A program made the translations under genes and the position numbers. DNA of 6,335 bases from Desulfobacteraceae bacterium (lineage in GTDB: Bacteria > Desulfobacterota > DSM-4660 > Desulfatiglandales > HGW-15): the NCBI GenBank assembly GCA_003819975.1, contig RPPU01000277.1:1-6335 (forward strand). Direction: 5' to 3'. Each line of letters begins with the position of its first letter. Positions within the stretch are counted from its first letter, which is position 1. Below the pieces are notes generated by a model. It made no database searches. It had not been told where the DNA came from and was given only the letters and a program-made list of their open reading frames with translations. Positions 1-6,335 of this stretch are shown one piece after another.

Positions 1-220
1 CCAAATGAAAAACATAATCCATACCTTGTACAGCCGCAATCAAAGAGCTTTGCTCAAGGCAGTCGCCCTTCACGATCTGAACAGAAAGATCCTTTAACCA
101 GCCCAATTGGTCCGGATTGCGCAAAAGGCAGCGGACTTCCAGACCTTTTTGTAATAAAAATTCAACTAAATGGCTGCCGATAAAGCCGGTAGCACCTGTG
201 ACCAGCGATTTCAATTTCAT
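1..220 (-). CDS. NAD-dependent epimerase/dehydratase (extended SDR), N-terminal part, cut by window start
   Basis: Reading the minus strand from the ATG at 220-218 gives 73 codons that run off the window edge. The protein begins MKLKSLVTGATGFIGSHLVE. GATGFIG at residues 9-15 is the GxxGxxG dinucleotide-binding turn of the Rossmann fold, in the position typical of extended short-chain dehydrogenases. Further on, KGDC (about residues 52-55) and DYVFHL (about 68-73) match the conserved 'GD...VFHLA' strands of this family. These cytoplasmic enzymes act on nucleotide sugars, dihydroflavonol-like or steroid-like substrates. The substrate-specific half and the YxxxK catalytic motif lie outside the window, so the reaction cannot be named. 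AAAGGA (230-225) sits just upstream of the start, and a near-consensus promoter lies directly behind it, giving a very short leader. The gene is transcribed away from the cytochrome gene and there is no evidence of a functional link. Confidence 0.9.
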   Translation of the reverse strand, partial: MKLKSLVTGATGFIGSHLVEFLLQKGLEVRCLLRNPDQLGWLKDLSVQIVKGDCLEQSSLIAAVQGMDYVFHL

Positions 221-241
221 TGATTCCTTTAAAATCGCAAA

Positions 242-269
242 ATTCTACATACTTTCAGTAAGTTGTCAA
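242..269 (-). promoter_or_regulatory. Sigma-70-type promoter of the epimerase gene
   Basis: On the minus strand a perfect TTGACA -35 box (269-264) is followed after 16 bases by TAGAAT (247-242), a 5/6 match to TATAAT. Transcription would start near 235, leaving a leader of about 15 bases that contains just the AAAGGA ribosome binding site. The match and position make this the most convincing promoter in the window. Confidence 0.7.
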
Positions 270-437
270 GGTTAATCCTGGATGATGCTGTTTTAGAAGC
301 CAACCAGGGGTCGATTTAAATGATAGGCCATGGCATAAAGAAAAAATCTCAAAGGACTTGAGCGCTCCCATAACGTTTTATGTCGGTCTACCGGCTGAAC
401 GTTTTCGGTCGATCAATATTCAAAAGCTTTTTTATTA

Positions 438-466
438 TTGACAATAAGGCGCCAGATAGGTAAAAA
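438..466 (+). promoter_or_regulatory. Probable sigma-70-type promoter of the cytochrome gene
   Basis: A perfect TTGACA (438-443) is followed by a 17-base spacer and TAAAAA (461-466), a 4/6 match to the -10 consensus. A start near 473 would give a leader of about 44 bases before the ATG at 517. The -35 box and spacing are good but the -10 box is weak, so activator help is possible. Two direct copies of AACGTTTT lie upstream of it (372-379 and 398-405). Confidence 0.45.
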
Positions 467-516
467 TAGACACAAGGGAAAATCATAACGCTCTATCACA
501 AAAGGGGTTACTGAAT

Positions 517-906
517 ATGAAAAAAGGAATGCTACTGCTTGCTTTGCTGGGTTTACTGCTTGCTTATATGGGCATCGTGATTGCCGCGGATTTGCCGAAA
601 GAGATCGTCATCGACAACAAGGGCTATTCGCCGGATACCAAGGGGCCGGTGAAATTCAGCCATAACAAACATTCGGTGGACTTAAAGCTGGCCTGTAACG
701 ATTGTCACCATGTTTATCAGGACGGCAAAAATGTTTTGAAACAGGGTCAGCCGATTCAGAAATGCTCGGCTTGCCATGATGTAAAAGAGTCCAAGGGCAA
801 TGCCAAAAAGCTGCAGCTGGCCTATCACGCCAATTGTAAAGATTGCCATAAGACCATGAAAAAGGGTCCGACCGACAAATGCGCGGATTGCCACGCCAAG
901 AAATAA
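517..906 (+). CDS. Periplasmic tetraheme cytochrome c3 (class III cytochrome c)
   Basis: This 129-aa precursor has a Sec signal peptide: MKKG, a leucine-rich core at about residues 5-22, and likely cleavage near VIA/AD at 23-25. The mature part is small and lysine-rich. It carries four CxxCH heme-attachment motifs at residues 60-64, 83-87, 107-111 and 122-126. The four extra histidines of bis-His class III cytochromes are also present: H49 and H52 in FSHNKH, H65 directly after the first motif (CHH), and H104 in YHANC. The full heme-ligand set of cytochrome c3 is therefore intact. All four motifs are CxxCH, whereas several Desulfovibrio c3 proteins use CxxxxCH for two hemes. The family shuttles electrons in the periplasm between hydrogenases or dehydrogenases and membrane complexes or outer-surface acceptors. 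AAAGGGG (501-507) precedes the start by 9 bases. The gene has its own promoter-like sequence and terminator, so it appears monocistronic, and no redox partner is visible here. Confidence 0.95.
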   Translation: MKKGMLLLALLGLLLAYMGIVIAADLPKEIVIDNKGYSPDTKGPVKFSHNKHSVDLKLACNDCHHVYQDGKNVLKQGQPIQKCSACHDVKESKGNAKKLQLAYHANCKDCHKTMKKGPTDKCADCHAKK

Positions 907-930
907 ACAGCCGGATATAATTAGAATTTC

Positions 931-960
931 AAAAGGCCGCTCGATTGAGCGGCCTTTTTT
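931..960 (+). terminator. Intrinsic terminator of the cytochrome gene
   Basis: A perfect 12-bp stem (AAAAGGCCGCTC at 931-942, GAGCGGCCTTTT at 947-958) closes a GATT loop and runs into a T-tract (955-960). It lies 24 bases after the cytochrome stop codon. Because the stem starts with four A's, it could also terminate transcription from the other strand. Confidence 0.92.
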
Positions 961-976
961 ATTTGGAGTGAAAAAA

Positions 977-1002
977 GGAACAGGCGAATCATCCCACCGT
1001 TA
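977..1002 (+). promoter_or_regulatory. Possible ECF-type promoter upstream of the sigma factor gene
   Basis: GGAAC (977-981), preceded by a run of six A's (971-976), is followed by a 16-base spacer and CGTTA (998-1002). ECF sigma factors commonly recognise a GGAAC- or GAAC-type -35 element and a CGT-type -10 element at this spacing, often with an A-tract just upstream, and they often control their own gene. The leader to the sigma start at 1122 would be about 115 bases, longer than usual. No second copy of the motif pair was seen before the downstream genes, so this remains a candidate. Confidence 0.3.
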
Positions 1003-1121
1003 CCAGGATAGGGCTGGGATTAAAATCAGTCTAATGATTCCTGATTCTTAAAATAATTGAAGTCACATGTGCATCAAAACAATGACTTCGGGCGTGGTTA
1101 GGGTAGGATCGATTATTCCTA

Positions 1122-1595
1122 ATGAAGCGAATTGAGAAGATACGAATCTTTTATCAAGAAAACAAGAAGGCGCTCTATACGTATGCCCTGTCGCTGACCC
1201 GTAACCGCGAAAGCGCCGAAGACGCGATGCATACGGCGTTCTGCAAACTCCTGAACCGGCCCATGCTGCCGATTAGCCTGCGTCCCTATGTTTTCAGATG
1301 CGTGCGTAACGCGGCCATCGATGATTGGCGCGGTCGTGAAGCCTCAAAAGAGGCGCTTTTTGATTTGGAAGCACCGAGCATGCTTCCCGAAGATAGGGCC
1401 TTATGGAACCAAATAGGCGAGTTGTTGTTCGAACTTTCCGGCGATGAGCGCGAGACCATCATCCTCAAAGCGCTGCATGAGTTCACTTTTCAGGAAATCG
1501 CGACCCTCAGAAGGACCCCCATTCGTACCGTTATTTCCTGGTATCGCCGGGGATTGGAAAAACTGAAAAACATGATCGGAGAGGAAGTAAAATGA
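1122..1595 (+). CDS. ECF-like (sigma-70 family) RNA polymerase sigma factor
   Basis: This 157-aa cytoplasmic protein has the two-domain layout of extracytoplasmic-function sigma factors. The region 2 domain spans about residues 10-72. It includes SAEDAMHTAFCKLLNRP, resembling region 2.2 (core RNA polymerase contact), and LRPYVFRCVRNAAIDDWR, resembling regions 2.3-2.4 (-10 recognition and melting). A short linker rich in acidic residues leads to region 4 (about 98-151). There, LSGDERETIILKALHEFTFQEIA and TPIRTVISWYRRGLEKLKNM form the helix-turn-helix that reads the -35 element. The length is at the short end for the family. The start is bounded by an in-frame TAG at 1104-1106. The only Shine-Dalgarno-like sequence (AGGAT, 1105-1109) is distant, so translation may be weak. 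The stop overlaps the next start in ATGA (1592-1595), implying coupled synthesis with a partner that probably restrains it. The ECF subgroup cannot be assigned from this reading. Confidence 0.88.
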   Translation: MKRIEKIRIFYQENKKALYTYALSLTRNRESAEDAMHTAFCKLLNRPMLPISLRPYVFRCVRNAAIDDWRGREASKEALFDLEAPSMLPEDRALWNQIGELLFELSGDERETIILKALHEFTFQEIATLRRTPIRTVISWYRRGLEKLKNMIGEEVK

Positions 1596-1915
1596 AAGAC
1601 CTTGAAAAGATTTTAAAAAAGGCGCCCTGTCGGGATGTTCCTGACCGGGTGGGCCGGAAGGTGGAGATGGAATTCCAACAAGCGGAAGAAAAGCGCCGGG
1701 TATTTTTTTCCCGACCGATCCCGCTTTGGGCCCATATCGGTATTTGTTTCTTGTGCCTTTATGCCGGGTTTGCATTCCATTCTCTTATGGTGGAGAAGCC
1801 GGGTTATTCCCCGCTGGCAGATAAGCCGGAAGAAACCCAATTATCCGGTCTGGCCGTTTCGAGCGAATCTTATAAGCTCTTTTTTGATGAGATGAATAAC
1901 CGATCAGGACGATAA
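1592..1915 (+). CDS. Small single-pass membrane protein, putative anti-sigma factor
   Basis: This 107-aa protein starts inside the stop codon of the sigma gene (ATGA overlap) with a purine-rich GGAGAGGAAG ribosome binding site just upstream (about 1577-1586). A basic and acidic N-terminal segment (residues 1-40, including CRDVPDRVGRKVEMEFQQ) should lie in the cytoplasm. One hydrophobic helix follows (about 43-67, IPLWAHIGICFLCLYAGFAF), then a 40-residue polar C-terminus on the far side of the membrane. Gene order, coupling and topology are those of membrane anti-sigma factors that hold an ECF sigma at the membrane. There is no HxxxCxxC zinc motif, and the cytoplasmic part is shorter than the usual anti-sigma domain, so the role is inferred from context and not from a recognised domain. 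Two cysteines (C52, C55) sit within the membrane helix. The outer tail is too short for a typical sensor domain. Confidence 0.7.
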   Translation: MKDLEKILKKAPCRDVPDRVGRKVEMEFQQAEEKRRVFFSRPIPLWAHIGICFLCLYAGFAFHSLMVEKPGYSPLADKPEETQLSGLAVSSESYKLFFDEMNNRSGR

Positions 1916-2024
1916 TTCTTTAAAAAGCGCAATTACTCTGGCACTTAAAAAAATCTTTAAATATAGCCGTTCTTGCTGAGTCCTTCGTCATGCCCAGTGT
2001 GAATGGGTGGTGAAATATCGACCC

Positions 2025-2038
2025 TGAGTAGTAACTCA
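2025..2038. repeat. Small inverted repeat upstream of the beta-lactamase-fold gene
   Basis: TGAGT and ACTCA form 5-bp arms around AGTA, 46 bases before the ATG at 2085. It could be a regulator site or a small hairpin in the leader, but inverted repeats this short arise by chance. No convincing promoter was found in the 169-bp gap (1916-2084), and no terminator separates it from the sigma/anti-sigma pair, so read-through from that pair is possible. Confidence 0.2.
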
Positions 2039-2070
2039 AAAATGATAAAACCAATTGTACATAGTTAAAA

Positions 2071-2075
2071 GGAGG
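2071..2075 (+). promoter_or_regulatory. Ribosome binding site that fixes the start at 2085
   Basis: GGAGG, within AAAAGGAGG, lies 9 bases before the ATG at 2085. An upstream in-frame TTG at 2055 would place this Shine-Dalgarno inside the coding sequence and add ten residues before the signal peptide. The ATG at 2085 is therefore the better start. Confidence 0.85.
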
Positions 2076-2084
2076 TATATAGCC

Positions 2085-3806
2085 ATGAAGTATCTAAAAG
2101 TTTTACCAAAAACCATCCTTTCCATCTTTTTGATTTTGGCCGTCTTCACCCCCGCTCTTTTGATTCAGGCCCAGGAATCCGCGAAGAATGCGGCGCCTTC
2201 CTTGGCCGCTCAGGCTGATGCGCGGCTAAGTCGCTGGTTTAAAGCGGATCAACCCGGAGCCGTGGTTTTATTGGTGCAGGACGGTAAAGTGCTTTTCAAA
2301 AAAGGGTACGGTCTCGCCAATGTGGAACTGGGCGTAACGATGCAGCCCGATATGCTTTTCCGCATCGGCGCAGTCACACAGCAGTTTACGGCCGCGGCGG
2401 TGATGTTGTTGGCAGAGGAAGGCAAGGTGGATTTGGCGGCTCCTATTGCGCGTTATTTGGAGAAACTACCTAGGGCCTGGAGGTCCGTTACCGTGGAGCA
2501 ATTGCTTAATCACACCTCGGGGATACCGGATTTTAGGGTTAGTAAAAATTTCTGGGAGCATAGACTGGAGAGAATCACTCCAAATCAATTGCTGGAGCTG
2601 TATGTGGTTAAAATGGCCATGGACTTTGAACCCGGCACCCAACATCGTTATACCTATACGGGTTATATCCTTCTGGGCATGATCATTGAAAAGGTTACGG
2701 GCCAATCCTATGCACGCTTTCTTCAAAAACGTTTGTTCGAACCTTTGGGACTGAAACACACGCATTACGATGAAGAAACCCAAGTTATTCCCGGCTTGGT
2801 CTCAGGATATTATTCTACCAATCCCAAGCCGGCTCCCTTCTGGAGTGTGACCCAGAAATACTCAGCAGTAGGACTCGTTTCCAACGCGGAAGACCTTGCC
2901 CAATGGACCCTGGCCTTGCATGGCGGCAAAGTGGTGAACTCGAAGAGCCTGGCCCGCATGTTGAGACCCACGCGACTAGCGAACGGCAAAGAGGAGCCTT
3001 ATGGTTTCGGTCTTGCATTCCGGCAATCCCAAGGAGATCGTTTAGTGGGTCAAGCTGGGGAAGTCTATGGTTTTGATTGTTTTGTAGAGGCGGATCCGGC
3101 AATTAAAGCTGTGGCCGTGATTCTCAATAACACCTTTGATCCCAAATGTGATCGAGATTATTTCAGCCGGTTCCTATTGGCGTTGGCTGCCGGTAAACCG
3201 CTCCCTGAGATCAAACCGGTTGCGATTGAGTCGTCAAAACTTAAGCGTCTAACCGGTTGGTATAAATTAGGGATGGAATTCCGCATTATTTCTTTTGACG
3301 GGAAAAATCTTTTCAGTCGCCGGAGGCCAGGCGCTGGCAAATATATGTTGATTCCGCTTTCGGAAACGGAATTCAGTTTCGATGATAGTGACCACCGTTT
3401 GCGTTTCGAATTGGCGGGGGATAAGGTGATCGGTCTATACCGCCGTTTTGCAGTGGATGTTCCCGAGCAACCGATAGAAAAGCGCATGGAACCGCTTGAG
3501 GATAAAGATCCAAAGGTCGTGAACATGGTGCAGCAAGGGTTTCGCGACTTGGTCGCGGGAACCTTGAAGCCCGACCTTTTTACGCCAGATTTGGAAACGA
3601 ATAATTTTTCTGACCGGGTGAACGAAGCCGCCGCGTTCGTCAAAGAACTTGGACCGCTAACCGGCATTGTGCTGTACGCGCGCGAAGAGAGATCGGGGGG
3701 GTATAAATATGTGTATCGGGTCAGCTTTGGAGAAAAAAGTATTGTCCTTCCTCTGTGGATAGCAAAGGATGGACGAGTTGGTAGTGTATCGCTTTGGGAG
3801 GAATAG
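2085..3806 (+). CDS. Exported serine beta-lactamase/PBP-fold protein with lost active-site motifs (probable pseudoenzyme)
   Basis: This 573-aa protein has a signal peptide (residues 1-30, cleavage near QAQ/ES). A class C beta-lactamase / S12 peptidase domain (about 40-375) is clearly recognisable from landmarks such as NHTSGIPDF (142-150), FEPGT (181-185), TGYILLGMIIEKVTG (192-206), IFEP-like LFEPLGL (217-223) and GLVSNAEDLAQW (263-274). The catalytic motifs are changed. The SxxK site reads AVTQ (96-99), so both nucleophile and general base are gone. YxN reads YTY (189-191). The HTG/KTG site reads QAG (323-325). A DUF3471-like beta-barrel follows (about 383-456: LTGWYKLGMEFRI...), then a C-terminal NTF2/DUF3887-like domain (about 475-573: GPLTGIVLYAREE, YRVSFGEKSIVLPLW). 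The frame is open and flanking motifs are well kept, so this is not a decaying gene. It more likely binds a peptide, peptidoglycan fragment or beta-lactam-like ligand in the periplasm without hydrolysing it. The role is inferred. Confidence 0.88.
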   Translation: MKYLKVLPKTILSIFLILAVFTPALLIQAQESAKNAAPSLAAQADARLSRWFKADQPGAVVLLVQDGKVLFKKGYGLANVELGVTMQPDMLFRIGAVTQQFTAAAVMLLAEEGKVDLAAPIARYLEKLPRAWRSVTVEQLLNHTSGIPDFRVSKNFWEHRLERITPNQLLELYVVKMAMDFEPGTQHRYTYTGYILLGMIIEKVTGQSYARFLQKRLFEPLGLKHTHYDEETQVIPGLVSGYYSTNPKPAPFWSVTQKYSAVGLVSNAEDLAQWTLALHGGKVVNSKSLARMLRPTRLANGKEEPYGFGLAFRQSQGDRLVGQAGEVYGFDCFVEADPAIKAVAVILNNTFDPKCDRDYFSRFLLALAAGKPLPEIKPVAIESSKLKRLTGWYKLGMEFRIISFDGKNLFSRRRPGAGKYMLIPLSETEFSFDDSDHRLRFELAGDKVIGLYRRFAVDVPEQPIEKRMEPLEDKDPKVVNMVQQGFRDLVAGTLKPDLFTPDLETNNFSDRVNEAAAFVKELGPLTGIVLYAREERSGGYKYVYRVSFGEKSIVLPLWIAKDGRVGSVSLWEE

Positions 3807-3876
3807 CGTTCTTTTCCGAATTCCGGCTCGAAATGTCCCTGTTGCCAAGTATTTTTTTCGAATCAGGAAAAAAGCG

Positions 3877-3898
3877 GGGGTTCAAAATTTTGAACCCC
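3877..3898. repeat. Perfect 22-bp palindrome between the two exported-protein genes
   Basis: GGGGTTCAAAA (3877-3887) is followed directly by its exact complement TTTTGAACCCC (3888-3898), then TAC. The CCCCTAC edge is the same as in the two larger palindromes at 5530-5560 and 6038-6066, but the core differs. It lies 70 bases after the stop of the beta-lactamase-fold gene and 118 bases before the next start. It could fold into a 3' hairpin, but there is no T-run directly after it, so it is not a standard terminator. Confidence 0.85.
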
Positions 3899-3941
3899 TA
3901 CGGGGGAATGAAAAATTTTTACCGCGAAATAATTTTAAGCA

Positions 3942-3974
3942 ACACAAAATTGTGTATACACGAAAGACACGAAA
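3942..3974. promoter_or_regulatory. Cluster of overlapping palindromes and a direct repeat before the C45 lipoprotein gene
   Basis: ACACAA-AA-TTGTGT (3942-3955) overlaps the perfect palindrome GTGTATACAC (3952-3961). This in turn overlaps two copies of ACACGAAA (3958-3965 and 3967-3974) separated by one base. All lie 42-74 bases before the ATG at 4016, where a promoter and operator would be expected. TATACA (3955-3960) could serve as a -10 box, but no good -35 box stands at the right distance. The symmetry is seen directly; regulator binding is inferred. Confidence 0.35.
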
Positions 3975-4015
3975 ACATAAATAAATACAACAACCGGGAT
4001 AAAAGGGGCTGAATC

Positions 4016-5518
4016 ATGAAATATAAAAAATTTTCGATTGTGCTGTTCCTGCTCATGTTGTTTGCGGCTTGTCAGGCGACTATCGCAAATAAGCCGGAGC
4101 CAGTGCTGTCTCTGGAATCTTTTGTCGGGCAATATGAATTCAAATCAATGATTGCCAGGGTTGTCCTCAAGGGGGAGACCACCCTCACGCTTACTGTGCC
4201 CGGTCAGCCGACTTACGAATTGATTCCCGCTAAAGGTACGTCGTTTGACATCAAGGGCCTGAACCGTTATCGCATTGAATTCAAGAAAAACGCTTCCGGG
4301 GCGGTTACTCAATTGATCGCGCACCAGCCCGACGGCACCTTCGTTGCGAAAAAGCGGTCAAATATCCCATATCCAAGCAGTGTCGTCTTAACCCCCAATC
4401 CGGCTATTCCGGCAGAGTATAAGGGTGCTTATTGGTCGAACGAACAACCTATAAAGGATTATCCTTTTGAAAAAATAGAAGTAGCCGGGACGTATAAGCA
4501 AATCGGCTGCATGTTCGGTCAGTGGTATCAGGCCAATGGTTATGTTCCCCGGGCTTTGCCGTCCGATAAACAAGAAACGGCACGCGCCTATTATGGTTTT
4601 ATTGATAAGATCTATCCAGGTATGGCAGAACAAATGCAGGGTGTTTATGCCTCTTATGGCCCGAATCTGAGTGAAATGCACATGGGAATCCCGGTCTGGG
4701 AAAGTCCGGGTTTCGGCTTTTTATTGCCGGGGGTGATCATCAATAAAAACAATGCAAGTCCGGGAAAAGACGGGTGTTCCAATGTTTTTGCCCGGCCCGG
4801 GATGAATACGGACGGACACGCTCGTTTTGGCCGTAATCATGACTGGTCTAATCCTATGCTGCACACAGCCTTGATTTTTACTTATCCCGAGACCACCGGT
4901 CATTATCCGACCCTTGTTATGACTTGCGGAGCGCCGGGTTTCATAGCTGCCGATGGAATCAACAACCAAGGACTGGCTATGGGTGCGGCAAGCGTGTCTC
5001 TTAAATATCAACCTCTAAAAGAGCCGGCATTAATAGATGTAAGCGCCTTTCATCTTGTTTTGGAGAAATGTGCCAATGTAGAAGAAGCCATAACTTTGTT
5101 GCGTTCAATCCCAATAACCTATTGTGATGCTTTTATGCCAAACCATTTCTTGCTGGCAGACCGCGGGGGTGCGTCCGTGGTCGTTGAATTTTTACCCACG
5201 GGAATCGAATTCAGCCGGGCCGATACCCCTTATCAGGTGATGACGAATAGCTATTGGGCCGGTCCTGCTGATAAAGATCGTTGTTGGCGCTATCGGCTGG
5301 CGATCTGTAAACTGCAAAGCAAACAAGGCCAAATAGATATGAATGGAATGATGGACGTTATGTCCTCAATCCATCATTCCACGCAATGGACCAGTATCTA
5401 TGACTTGCAGGATTTGAGCATGATTTTAACTTTGCCTAACGATCATTTTACGAAACAATACAAATTTTCCCTGGCGGATTTTATCGTTCGTATGGAGCAG
5501 AGAAAAAAAGGGAGCTGA
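4016..5518 (+). CDS. Lipoprotein: N-terminal beta-barrel-like domain fused to a C45 (acyltransferase/linear amide) Ntn hydrolase
   Basis: This 500-aa protein begins with a lipoprotein signal ending LFAAC, with C19 as the lipidation site. Gln at +2 does not signal inner-membrane retention under the enterobacterial rule. Residues about 33-113 (LESFVGQYEF, LTVPGQPTYELIPA, RIEFKKNASGAVTQL) resemble the DUF3471/lipocalin-like domain common at the C-terminus of beta-lactamase-fold proteins. The C45 domain spans about 150-490: GTYKQIGCMFGQW (158-170) near its start, DGCSNVF (252-258) with likely nucleophile C254, FGRNHDW (271-277), and MTNSY (409-413). These match the layout of isopenicillin N acyltransferase, whose precursor self-cleaves at a Gly-Cys bond roughly 100 residues into the domain. 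Here G253-C254 is about 104 residues in, so autoprocessing is predicted. Family members hydrolyse or transfer acyl groups on amides such as penicillins, bile salts or N-acyl amino acids; the substrate here is unknown. AAGGGG (4003-4008) precedes the start by 7 bases. Confidence 0.88.
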   Translation: MKYKKFSIVLFLLMLFAACQATIANKPEPVLSLESFVGQYEFKSMIARVVLKGETTLTLTVPGQPTYELIPAKGTSFDIKGLNRYRIEFKKNASGAVTQLIAHQPDGTFVAKKRSNIPYPSSVVLTPNPAIPAEYKGAYWSNEQPIKDYPFEKIEVAGTYKQIGCMFGQWYQANGYVPRALPSDKQETARAYYGFIDKIYPGMAEQMQGVYASYGPNLSEMHMGIPVWESPGFGFLLPGVIINKNNASPGKDGCSNVFARPGMNTDGHARFGRNHDWSNPMLHTALIFTYPETTGHYPTLVMTCGAPGFIAADGINNQGLAMGAASVSLKYQPLKEPALIDVSAFHLVLEKCANVEEAITLLRSIPITYCDAFMPNHFLLADRGGASVVVEFLPTGIEFSRADTPYQVMTNSYWAGPADKDRCWRYRLAICKLQSKQGQIDMNGMMDVMSSIHHSTQWTSIYDLQDLSMILTLPNDHFTKQYKFSLADFIVRMEQRKKGS

Positions 5519-5529
5519 AATAAGCCAAT

Positions 5530-5560
5530 AGTAGGGGCAGGTTTCAAACCTGCCCCTACT
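5530..5560. repeat. Dispersed palindromic repeat, copy 1
   Basis: The arm GTAGGGGCAGGTTT (5531-5544), a central C, and the exact complement AAACCTGCCCCTAC (5546-5559) form a perfect palindrome, extended by one more A/T pair to 5530-5560. It starts 12 bases after the stop codon of the C45 lipoprotein gene. The same element recurs at 6038-6066. Its size, intergenic position and symmetry resemble REP-type or small non-autonomous elements. As RNA it would be a very stable hairpin that could protect the 3' end of the upstream message, but no T-tract follows. Confidence 0.9.
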
Positions 5561-5631
5561 GGTTCTGGGTTAGGGCTTTTATTCTGGGCTGGGAGCTTCT
5601 TTTAGGAATGCGGCAATAAGGGTAAAAGCCA

Positions 5632-5706
5632 TCGCGTGACAAGGGCAGGAGCCCTCGCGTGACAAGGGCAGGAGCCCTCGCGTGACAAGGGCAGGAGCCC
5701 TCGCGT
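5632..5706. repeat. 23-bp tandem repeat, three perfect copies plus a partial fourth
   Basis: Three identical 23-bp units occupy 5632-5654, 5655-5677 and 5678-5700. Each starts TCGCGTGACAAG and ends GGAGCCC. A fourth begins with TCGCGT (5701-5706) and then diverges. Within each unit AGGGC-AGGA-GCCCT can form a 5-bp hairpin. The period is not a multiple of three and no open frame of note crosses the array, so it is not a protein repeat. There are no variable spacers, so it is not CRISPR. Confidence 0.93.
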
Positions 5707-5762
5707 AGCAAGAGGCCGTTTTTCAAGACGTGACCTATCGCGCCAAATCAAAGCGTGGACAT

Positions 5763-5782
5763 GTCACACGAGGGCTCCTGCC
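5763..5782. repeat. Inverted copy of the 23-bp repeat unit
   Basis: The reverse complement of these 20 bases matches GGCAGGAGCCCTCGCGTGAC from the tandem array at 19 of 20 positions (C to T at position 15). It lies about 60 bases after the array in opposite orientation, so array and copy could pair into a long stem whose loop holds 5701-5762. Confidence 0.85.
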
Positions 5783-6037
5783 ATGGTTCGCGTAATCCAA
5801 GGTTTTTTTGATCCTGAAAATATCGGACCAAAAAAATCTCCAATCCGATAAAGGATTACCGGAATGTCGTAATGGTCCAAAGATTACTTGAAATAAATCG
5901 ACCATAAATTGTCTATATTTTGGAATCAGAAGCCTATTGATATTAAAAATTTTACTTTCAATCAATCCGCATTTGCTTTATAGTCATAAAAAAAGACCGC
6001 TCATTAAGTTAATTCTATAAAAATCGTATTCTTAGCC

Positions 6038-6066
6038 GTAGGGGCAGGTTTAAAACCTGCCCCTAC
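6038..6066. repeat. Dispersed palindromic repeat, copy 2
   Basis: This is the same 14-base arm as at 5531 (GTAGGGGCAGGTTT, 6038-6051), with a central A and the exact complement (6053-6066). It differs from copy 1 only in the central base and the outermost pair. It lies 125 bases before the second lipoprotein start, close to the 118-base distance between the palindrome at 3877-3898 and the first lipoprotein start. Confidence 0.9.
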
Positions 6067-6094
6067 AATCACAAAGAAATATGCGACGTTGGGG

Positions 6095-6109
6095 TTGATG
6101 TAGCATCAA
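6095..6109. repeat. Short inverted repeat upstream of the second lipoprotein gene
   Basis: TTGATG and CATCAA form a 6-bp inverted repeat around TAG, 82 bases before the ATG at 6191. TTGATG could double as a -35 box, but no good -10 box stands 16-18 bases on (GATAGA at 6118-6123 is weak). It may be an operator or chance symmetry. Confidence 0.25.
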
Positions 6110-6190
6110 AAAGATAAGATAGATTCTTTTGCCTTTTCGATAATTCAAAAAAATGACACAACTTGGAAATAAATAAGAAAGAGGCCGATC

Positions 6191-6335
6191 ATGAAATATA
6201 AAAAAAAATCGATTGTGCTATTTATGCTATTGTTGTTTGCGGCTTGCCAGGCAATCCTGGAAAACAAGCCGGTGCAAACGGTATTTCCAAGTATGACCGG
6301 CCAGGCCGATGAAGACGCGTTCGGGATTTACTATA
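6191..6335 (+). CDS. Lipoprotein with leader paralogous to the upstream C45 lipoprotein, cut by window end
   Basis: Forty-eight codons are visible. The leader matches the lipoprotein at 4016 at 18 of its first 21 residues (21 of 30 overall) and ends in the same LFAAC lipobox, with C19 as the lipidation site followed by Gln. After the leader the sequences diverge, apart from a shared NKP (25-27). DAFGIYY near the end faintly resembles the start of the barrel-like domain of the upstream protein (ESFVGQYE), which would suggest a second copy of the same architecture, but too little is visible to be sure. GAGG (6181-6184) precedes the ATG by 6 bases. The product should be exported and membrane-anchored. 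The shared leader and the matching upstream palindrome suggest gene duplication, or reuse of a leader segment. Confidence 0.85.
   Translation, partial: MKYKKKSIVLFMLLLFAACQAILENKPVQTVFPSMTGQADEDAFGIYY

Follow-up and report, generated by a model that had tools for sequence, protein, structure and literature searches.

A PF00144-fold protein with all three catalytic motifs replaced and its scaffold retained in a Desulfobacteraceae bacterium

The window analysed here, a stretch of 6,335 nucleotides from a Desulfobacteraceae bacterium (contig RPPU01000277.1, positions 1 to 6,335), contains on its + strand a gene for a protein of the PF00144 family in which the active-site motifs of the family are replaced. 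The gene (2085..3806) begins with an ATG at 2085, is preceded by GGAGG at 2071-2075 and runs for 573 codons plus stop, which bears out the intact frame described in the original prediction. The 573-residue product, P0001, matches PF00144 with 237 bits (cutoff 27). A signal peptide is predicted at about residues 1-31 (2085..2177), where the hydrophobic segment starts at residue 11 and has a mean Kyte-Doolittle value of 2.4. The PF00144 match extends over residues 54-354 (2244..3146). It is followed by a C-terminal region, residues 381-573 (3225..3803), which is predicted to be folded and gave no match in Pfam at E values up to 1.

The replaced motifs lie exactly where they had been predicted: AVTQ (residues 96-99, 2370..2381, codons GCA GTC ACA CAG) stands in place of SxxK, YTY (residues 189-191, 2649..2657) in place of YxN, and QAG (residues 323-325, 3051..3059) in place of HxG. 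In the alignment with three reference structures, the R61 DD-peptidase (1cef), the Bacillus cereus alkaline D-peptidase (4y7p) and a Pyrococcus abyssi homologue (2qmi), AVTQ is opposite SVTK or SITK, YTY opposite YSN or YLN, and QAG opposite HTG, HGG or HSG. A further change, Val262 (2868..2870), occupies a position that is Gly in 97% of the relatives; it aligns with Gly238 of R61, five residues past Trp233, which lines the R61 pocket. The domain contains no SxxK elsewhere, the only such motif of the protein being SKLK at residue 384, outside the PF00144 match. P0001 has the three-dimensional fold of the DD-peptidases and class C enzymes and none of the signatures (SxxK, [SY]x[NT], [KH]xG) of the SxxK acyl-serine enzymes, i.e. 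penicillin-binding proteins, beta-lactamases and LACTB.

The pattern of changes was examined in an alignment of 120 listed proteins including P0001, with conservation scored in the 118 proteins other than P0001 and its sister, P0002. Sixty columns were conserved in at least 90% of the 118, and 59 were left after one in the signal peptide was dropped. P0001 departs at six of these (S96A, K99Q, N191Y, H323Q, P178A and G262V), P0002 at eight (S96W, H143D, P178T, F181S, Y189F, N191A, Y306H and H323Y). Four of the five catalytic columns are changed in each protein (hypergeometric probabilities 1.6e-4 for P0001 and 7.2e-4 for P0002), and 52 of the 54 non-catalytic conserved columns are intact in P0001; the 118 other relatives depart on average at 1.9 of the 60 columns, at most at 10. 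Neutral evolution was simulated 300 times at each of two levels of divergence; no run stayed free of stop codons, and none left the 54 non-catalytic columns as little changed as they are in P0001. The pattern is not that of decay. P0001 has lost the catalytic residues and kept the fold, and the simulations, the branch lengths in the trees and the existence of an inactive sister indicate that it is likely maintained by selection. The earlier claim of a scaffold retained under selection with every catalytic motif lost was therefore upheld.

P0002, represented by three member sequences and located on a contig of 5,948 bases, is 71% identical to P0001 and is also inactive by motif (GWVTK, FTA and YWG, with Lys99 retained), so the site is lost in the sister as well. 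Neither of the findings named beforehand as refuting the original prediction, a genuine SxxK at another place in the domain or sisters that all retain it, was thus made. The two proteins formed a clade in all four trees (support 100/98, 100/99, 99/98 and 100/98, the last without the motif columns). Trees pairing either P0001 or P0002 with P0003, whose site is intact, were rejected by the approximately unbiased (AU) test (p 0.0018 and 0.0023, motif columns removed); because the groups were defined after the motifs had been seen, these and the following AU p values are indicative only. The simplest history would be one loss before the P0001/P0002 split with subsequent drift at positions that had become useless, the alternative being two losses.

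The site was also lost elsewhere in PF00144. Three protein searches scored 7,999, 7,999 and 6,195 candidates, and the best 120 of 2,253, 120 of 597 and 60 of 60 matches were considered; further inactive members may lie below these. Ser and Lys of the first motif (S..K) are kept in 213 of the 217 PF00144 proteins so obtained, the exceptions being P0001, P0002, P0181 (FLTE/FSN/SGG) and P0185 (FLTQ/FSS/SGG), the contigs that carry the last two being 294 kb and 1.77 Mb long. P0181 and P0185 grouped with P0032, which has kept the site, in two trees (96/91 and 89/91), their placement being unresolved in the tree without motif columns. A single clade of P0001, P0002, P0181 and P0185 was rejected (AU p 6.9e-9, and 0.0026 after removal of the motif columns). 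In P0202, P0204 and P0209 S..K is present and SGN is found where YxN is expected.

Among 109 hits at genomic loci (98 loci, duplicates included) two frames lacked S..K. One, L049 (5347-6798) of a Gemmatimonadaceae metagenome-assembled genome, reads SLTT/YDY/NGG, Ser being kept and Lys, Asn and His lost; it adjoins rows counted as S..K in the tree (96/91), away from the sphingomonad clade described below, its separateness being judged from tree position alone. On the opposite strand, 1.1 kb away, is a second PF00144 gene, whose motif reads SVSK. The other frame, L062 of Sphingobium sp. CECT 9361, by its name a strain from a culture collection, reads AVGM/FSY/HSG. With it as query three similar proteins were retrieved, L102 from the same genome and L105 and L107 from two further genomes belonging to the family; each has AxxM/FSY, and the third motif is QLG, QAG and HSG, respectively. 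The tree neighbours of this sphingomonad clade, L108 and L109, retain SVGK/YSN/HGG. Uniting the clade with the P0001/P0002 pair was rejected (AU p 1.8e-75, motif columns included).

A single-query scan of genome contigs gave no relative, and in a second scan, of which the best 80 of 548 loci were retained, the best locus (L001) was 49% identical and had an intact site. Of 297 genomes from the phylum to which L001 belongs, two contained a match to P0001 at E 1e-90, each with 48% identity. With P0185 as query none of 396 genomes of that phylum gave a match at E 1e-100, seven of 93 genomes of the class gave one at E 1e-60 (at most 43% identity), and the loci found at the latter threshold were the source of none of the frames lacking S..K. 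One viral contig matched at 29%.

Although they stand far apart in the tree, P0001 and all four sphingomonad proteins share Ala96 and Tyr191; Gln323 is found in two of the four, and Gln323-Ala324 is common to P0001 and L105. None of the 315 S..K rows (213 proteins and 102 locus frames, with possible duplicates between the sets) has an aromatic residue at 191. All nine proteins without the full S..K pair have an aromatic residue at 96 or 191: Tyr191 in P0001, L049, L062, L102, L105 and L107, Trp96 in P0002 and Phe96 in P0181 and P0185. This pattern, which was noticed post hoc in these same proteins, could mean that the pocket is plugged, that aromatic residues cage a ligand or that the codon changes are easy ones.

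In three of the four sphingomonad cases, each in a different genome, the gene immediately upstream of the inactive one encodes a putative transcription regulator, anchored in the membrane, that is 451-480 residues long and has a single transmembrane segment. The regulators are 40-50% identical among themselves; a stretch weakly resembling Trans_reg_C was found in two of the three (E 0.026 and 0.063, below the Pfam cutoff) and not in the third. Opposite the regulators (L110, L111 and L112) lies a divergent set of genes for a DUF6152 protein, a protein of 258-283 residues and a DUF4185 protein, assigned by Pfam on the L110 copies only, those at the other loci being 59-81% identical. At L110, in Sphingobium sp. 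CECT 9361, the inactive gene occupies 5394-6884 and the regulator gene 6881-8236, and the divergent genes run from 8526. In L110 the set is followed by a gene resembling thiamine pyrophosphate-dependent/indolepyruvate oxidoreductases, and by eye a similar frame is present in L112. L062 does not have the regulator arrangement and sits after an 809-residue frame that was taken, by eye, for a TonB-dependent receptor. Members of this regulator family are common, being present in 36 of 397 genomes at E 1e-15. Of 30 regulator loci, three had the inactive protein within 1.5 kb, two an S..K-bearing PF00144 protein on the opposite strand and 25 neither. The family being wider than the pairing, the regulator alone does not predict an inactive protein.

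The genes upstream of the P0001 gene had been described as a sigma/anti-sigma pair. The sigma factor stood: 1122..1595 (+) encodes an extracytoplasmic function (ECF) type protein matching PF04542 and PF08281, and TIGR02937 above cutoff. The overlapping gene 1592..1915 (+) encodes a 107-residue protein without Pfam or NCBIfam match, whose place and single predicted transmembrane segment suggest a putative anti-sigma factor. The P0001 gene starts 169 bases past this gene; the interval contains no terminator-like site on the + strand, and its promoter-like sites are not above chance. Downstream, 4016..5518 (+) encodes a C45-type autoproteolytic acyltransferase/hydrolase with an N-terminal DUF3471-like segment. 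Residues 26-103 give a weak DUF3471 match, and the segment is 43-67% identical to PF00144 proteins bearing PF11954 (DUF3471), P0155-P0180, over 16-21% of the length of the C45 protein; this small domain is thus found on two unrelated hydrolase folds. Relatives of the C45 protein carry the labels Desulfobacteraceae and Chloroflexi. A gene start truncated by the window end (6191..6335, +) resembles the N-terminus of P0006 and P0007 (57% and 47% identity over 44-47 residues), which are long PF00144 proteins with SxxK; any PF00144 part of this gene would lie beyond the window. At their N-termini the products of the C45 gene and the 6191 gene share 78% identity over 27 residues, as if the 5′ ends had been duplicated, and the downstream parts are unlike. 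By eye we also noticed a palindrome in two copies (5531-5559 and 6038-6066, around GTAGGGGCAGGTTT and AAACCTGCCCCTAC) and a short tandem repeat, GACAAGGGCAGGAGCCCTCGCGT, at about 5638-5705. At 517-906 a TmcA-like acidic tetraheme cytochrome c3 scored 90 bits, below the NCBIfam cutoff of 114.

We consider it probable that P0001 is an exported PF00144-fold pseudoenzyme whose cleft has been kept for non-covalent binding of a ligand or partner. Several observations weigh against this. At the positions lost in both sisters the residues are not alike, and P0002 retains Lys99: 96, 99, 191 and 323 are Ala, Gln, Tyr and Gln in P0001, and Trp, Lys, Ala and Tyr in P0002. The substitutions are thus not conserved and give no sign of a specific pocket function common to the pair, and drift at unneeded sites fits better than one conserved pocket. 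Identity between the sisters is lower in the PF00144 domain (residues 55-365, 66.9%) than in the C-terminal region (residues 366-573, 74.6%), whereas 43 of the 45 pairs formed from ten full-length proteins, these two included, show the opposite order. The strongest selection may therefore act on the C-terminal region, and the divergence of the domain would point, not decisively, to relaxed constraint rather than a kept pocket. Both observations are what one would expect if, catalysis having been lost, the domain were a mere scaffold or carrier and the C-terminal region did the selected work, an explanation that we regard as possible but unlikely, given that 52 of the 54 non-catalytic columns are retained. 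Moreover, the only other pair with the more divergent domain, P0006/P0007, has kept S..K and gives an identical ratio (1.34), which is therefore not confined to inactive proteins.

The line between active and inactive members is also blurred, as His323 is missing from 8 of the 213 S..K proteins (Gln in two of them), and Asn191 as well as His323 from P0118. The structure model, derived from an alignment mostly of active relatives, cannot show inactivity, and matches to the sigma factor and the 107-residue protein were absent at 81 other loci (tblastn, a weak test). The convergence on Ala96, Tyr191 and, in part, Gln323, with no aromatic residue at 191 in the S..K rows, could mean that the changed site performs new chemistry, for example through Tyr189, Tyr191 and Gln323. 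We find an enzyme of another kind quite improbable: the inactive proteins share no conserved nucleophile, positions 191 and 323 are Ala and Tyr in the sister, and Gln323 occurs in two S..K proteins too. Least probable of all is a recent pseudogene or sequence error. P0001 has a single known member sequence, that of the window contig itself, but the intact frame, the conserved scaffold, the neutral simulations and the three sequences of the inactive sister all speak against it.

Compared with characterized proteins of the fold, P0001 differs from the R61 DD-peptidase (3pte), the alkaline D-peptidase (4y7p) and the D-amino acid amidase (2drw) in lacking SxxK, YxN and HxG, and from LACTB (7v21, 7ulw) in having none of the three motifs. 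Two papers stress the generality of the motifs: metazoan LACTB family members are classified by the presence of all three (PMC2266909), and a superfamily survey reports SxxK in almost every domain sequence (PMC4917113).

The likeness to BlaR1/MecR1 would be that of a penicillin-recognizing fold serving signalling. BlaR1 and MecR1 are acylated on the SxxK serine and are fused to a membrane protease. P0001, in contrast, has Ala96 and hence no acylatable sensor serine, and PF00144 is its sole Pfam domain, with no membrane metalloprotease part. The sphingomonad clade resembles P0001 in having the PF00144 fold, Ala96, Tyr191, a C-terminal extension and, in two of four members, Gln323; it differs in its separate origin, Met99 and Phe189, and in standing, in three of four cases, beside a membrane-anchored regulator instead of an ECF sigma factor.

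It is about as certain as sequence allows that P0001 lacks the acylation machinery, the nucleophile and its lysine, the asparagine of YxN and the histidine of HxG all being gone. It would presumably be unable to form an acyl-enzyme. Our best guess is that a cleft lined with Ala96, Gln99, Tyr189, Tyr191, Val262 and Gln323 is maintained to bind, with no covalent chemistry, a partner protein or a ligand, perhaps a compound resembling a D-amino acid or a wall peptide. Since a few relatives have separately lost the site, the fold is probably kept for binding or signalling and not for cutting. The sensor role put forward in the original prediction is possible by analogy: in the window it is suggested by gene order alone, and the independently arisen sphingomonad clade with its membrane regulator lends it indirect support. 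P0001 and its neighbours may report the state of the envelope to the ECF sigma factor; alternatively, P0001 may act as a regulator of the C45 hydrolase or of PF00144 paralogs that are active. A broader generalization, which we offer as a doubtful conjecture, is that the class C beta-lactamase fold was repeatedly turned into non-covalent envelope sensors, with Ser or Lys replaced, an aromatic residue (Tyr191, Trp96 or Phe96) filling the pocket, and partnership with trans-membrane transcription control, by the ECF sigma factor in the window and by the winged helix-turn-helix-like membrane regulator facing conserved divergent genes in sphingomonads.

Pseudoenzymes are a known kind of protein; judged by titles and abstract openings in the open-licence literature searched, we found neither PF00144 pseudoenzymes as a topic nor their repeated occurrence in this fold together with a clade linked to a regulator. 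Such genes in metagenomes should not be labelled beta-lactamases. Separate losses, convergent Ala and Tyr residues and a regulator-tied clade would make the fold a candidate source of non-acylating sensors derived from the penicillin site, and Sphingobium sp. CECT 9361 supplies proteins with which this idea can be tested.
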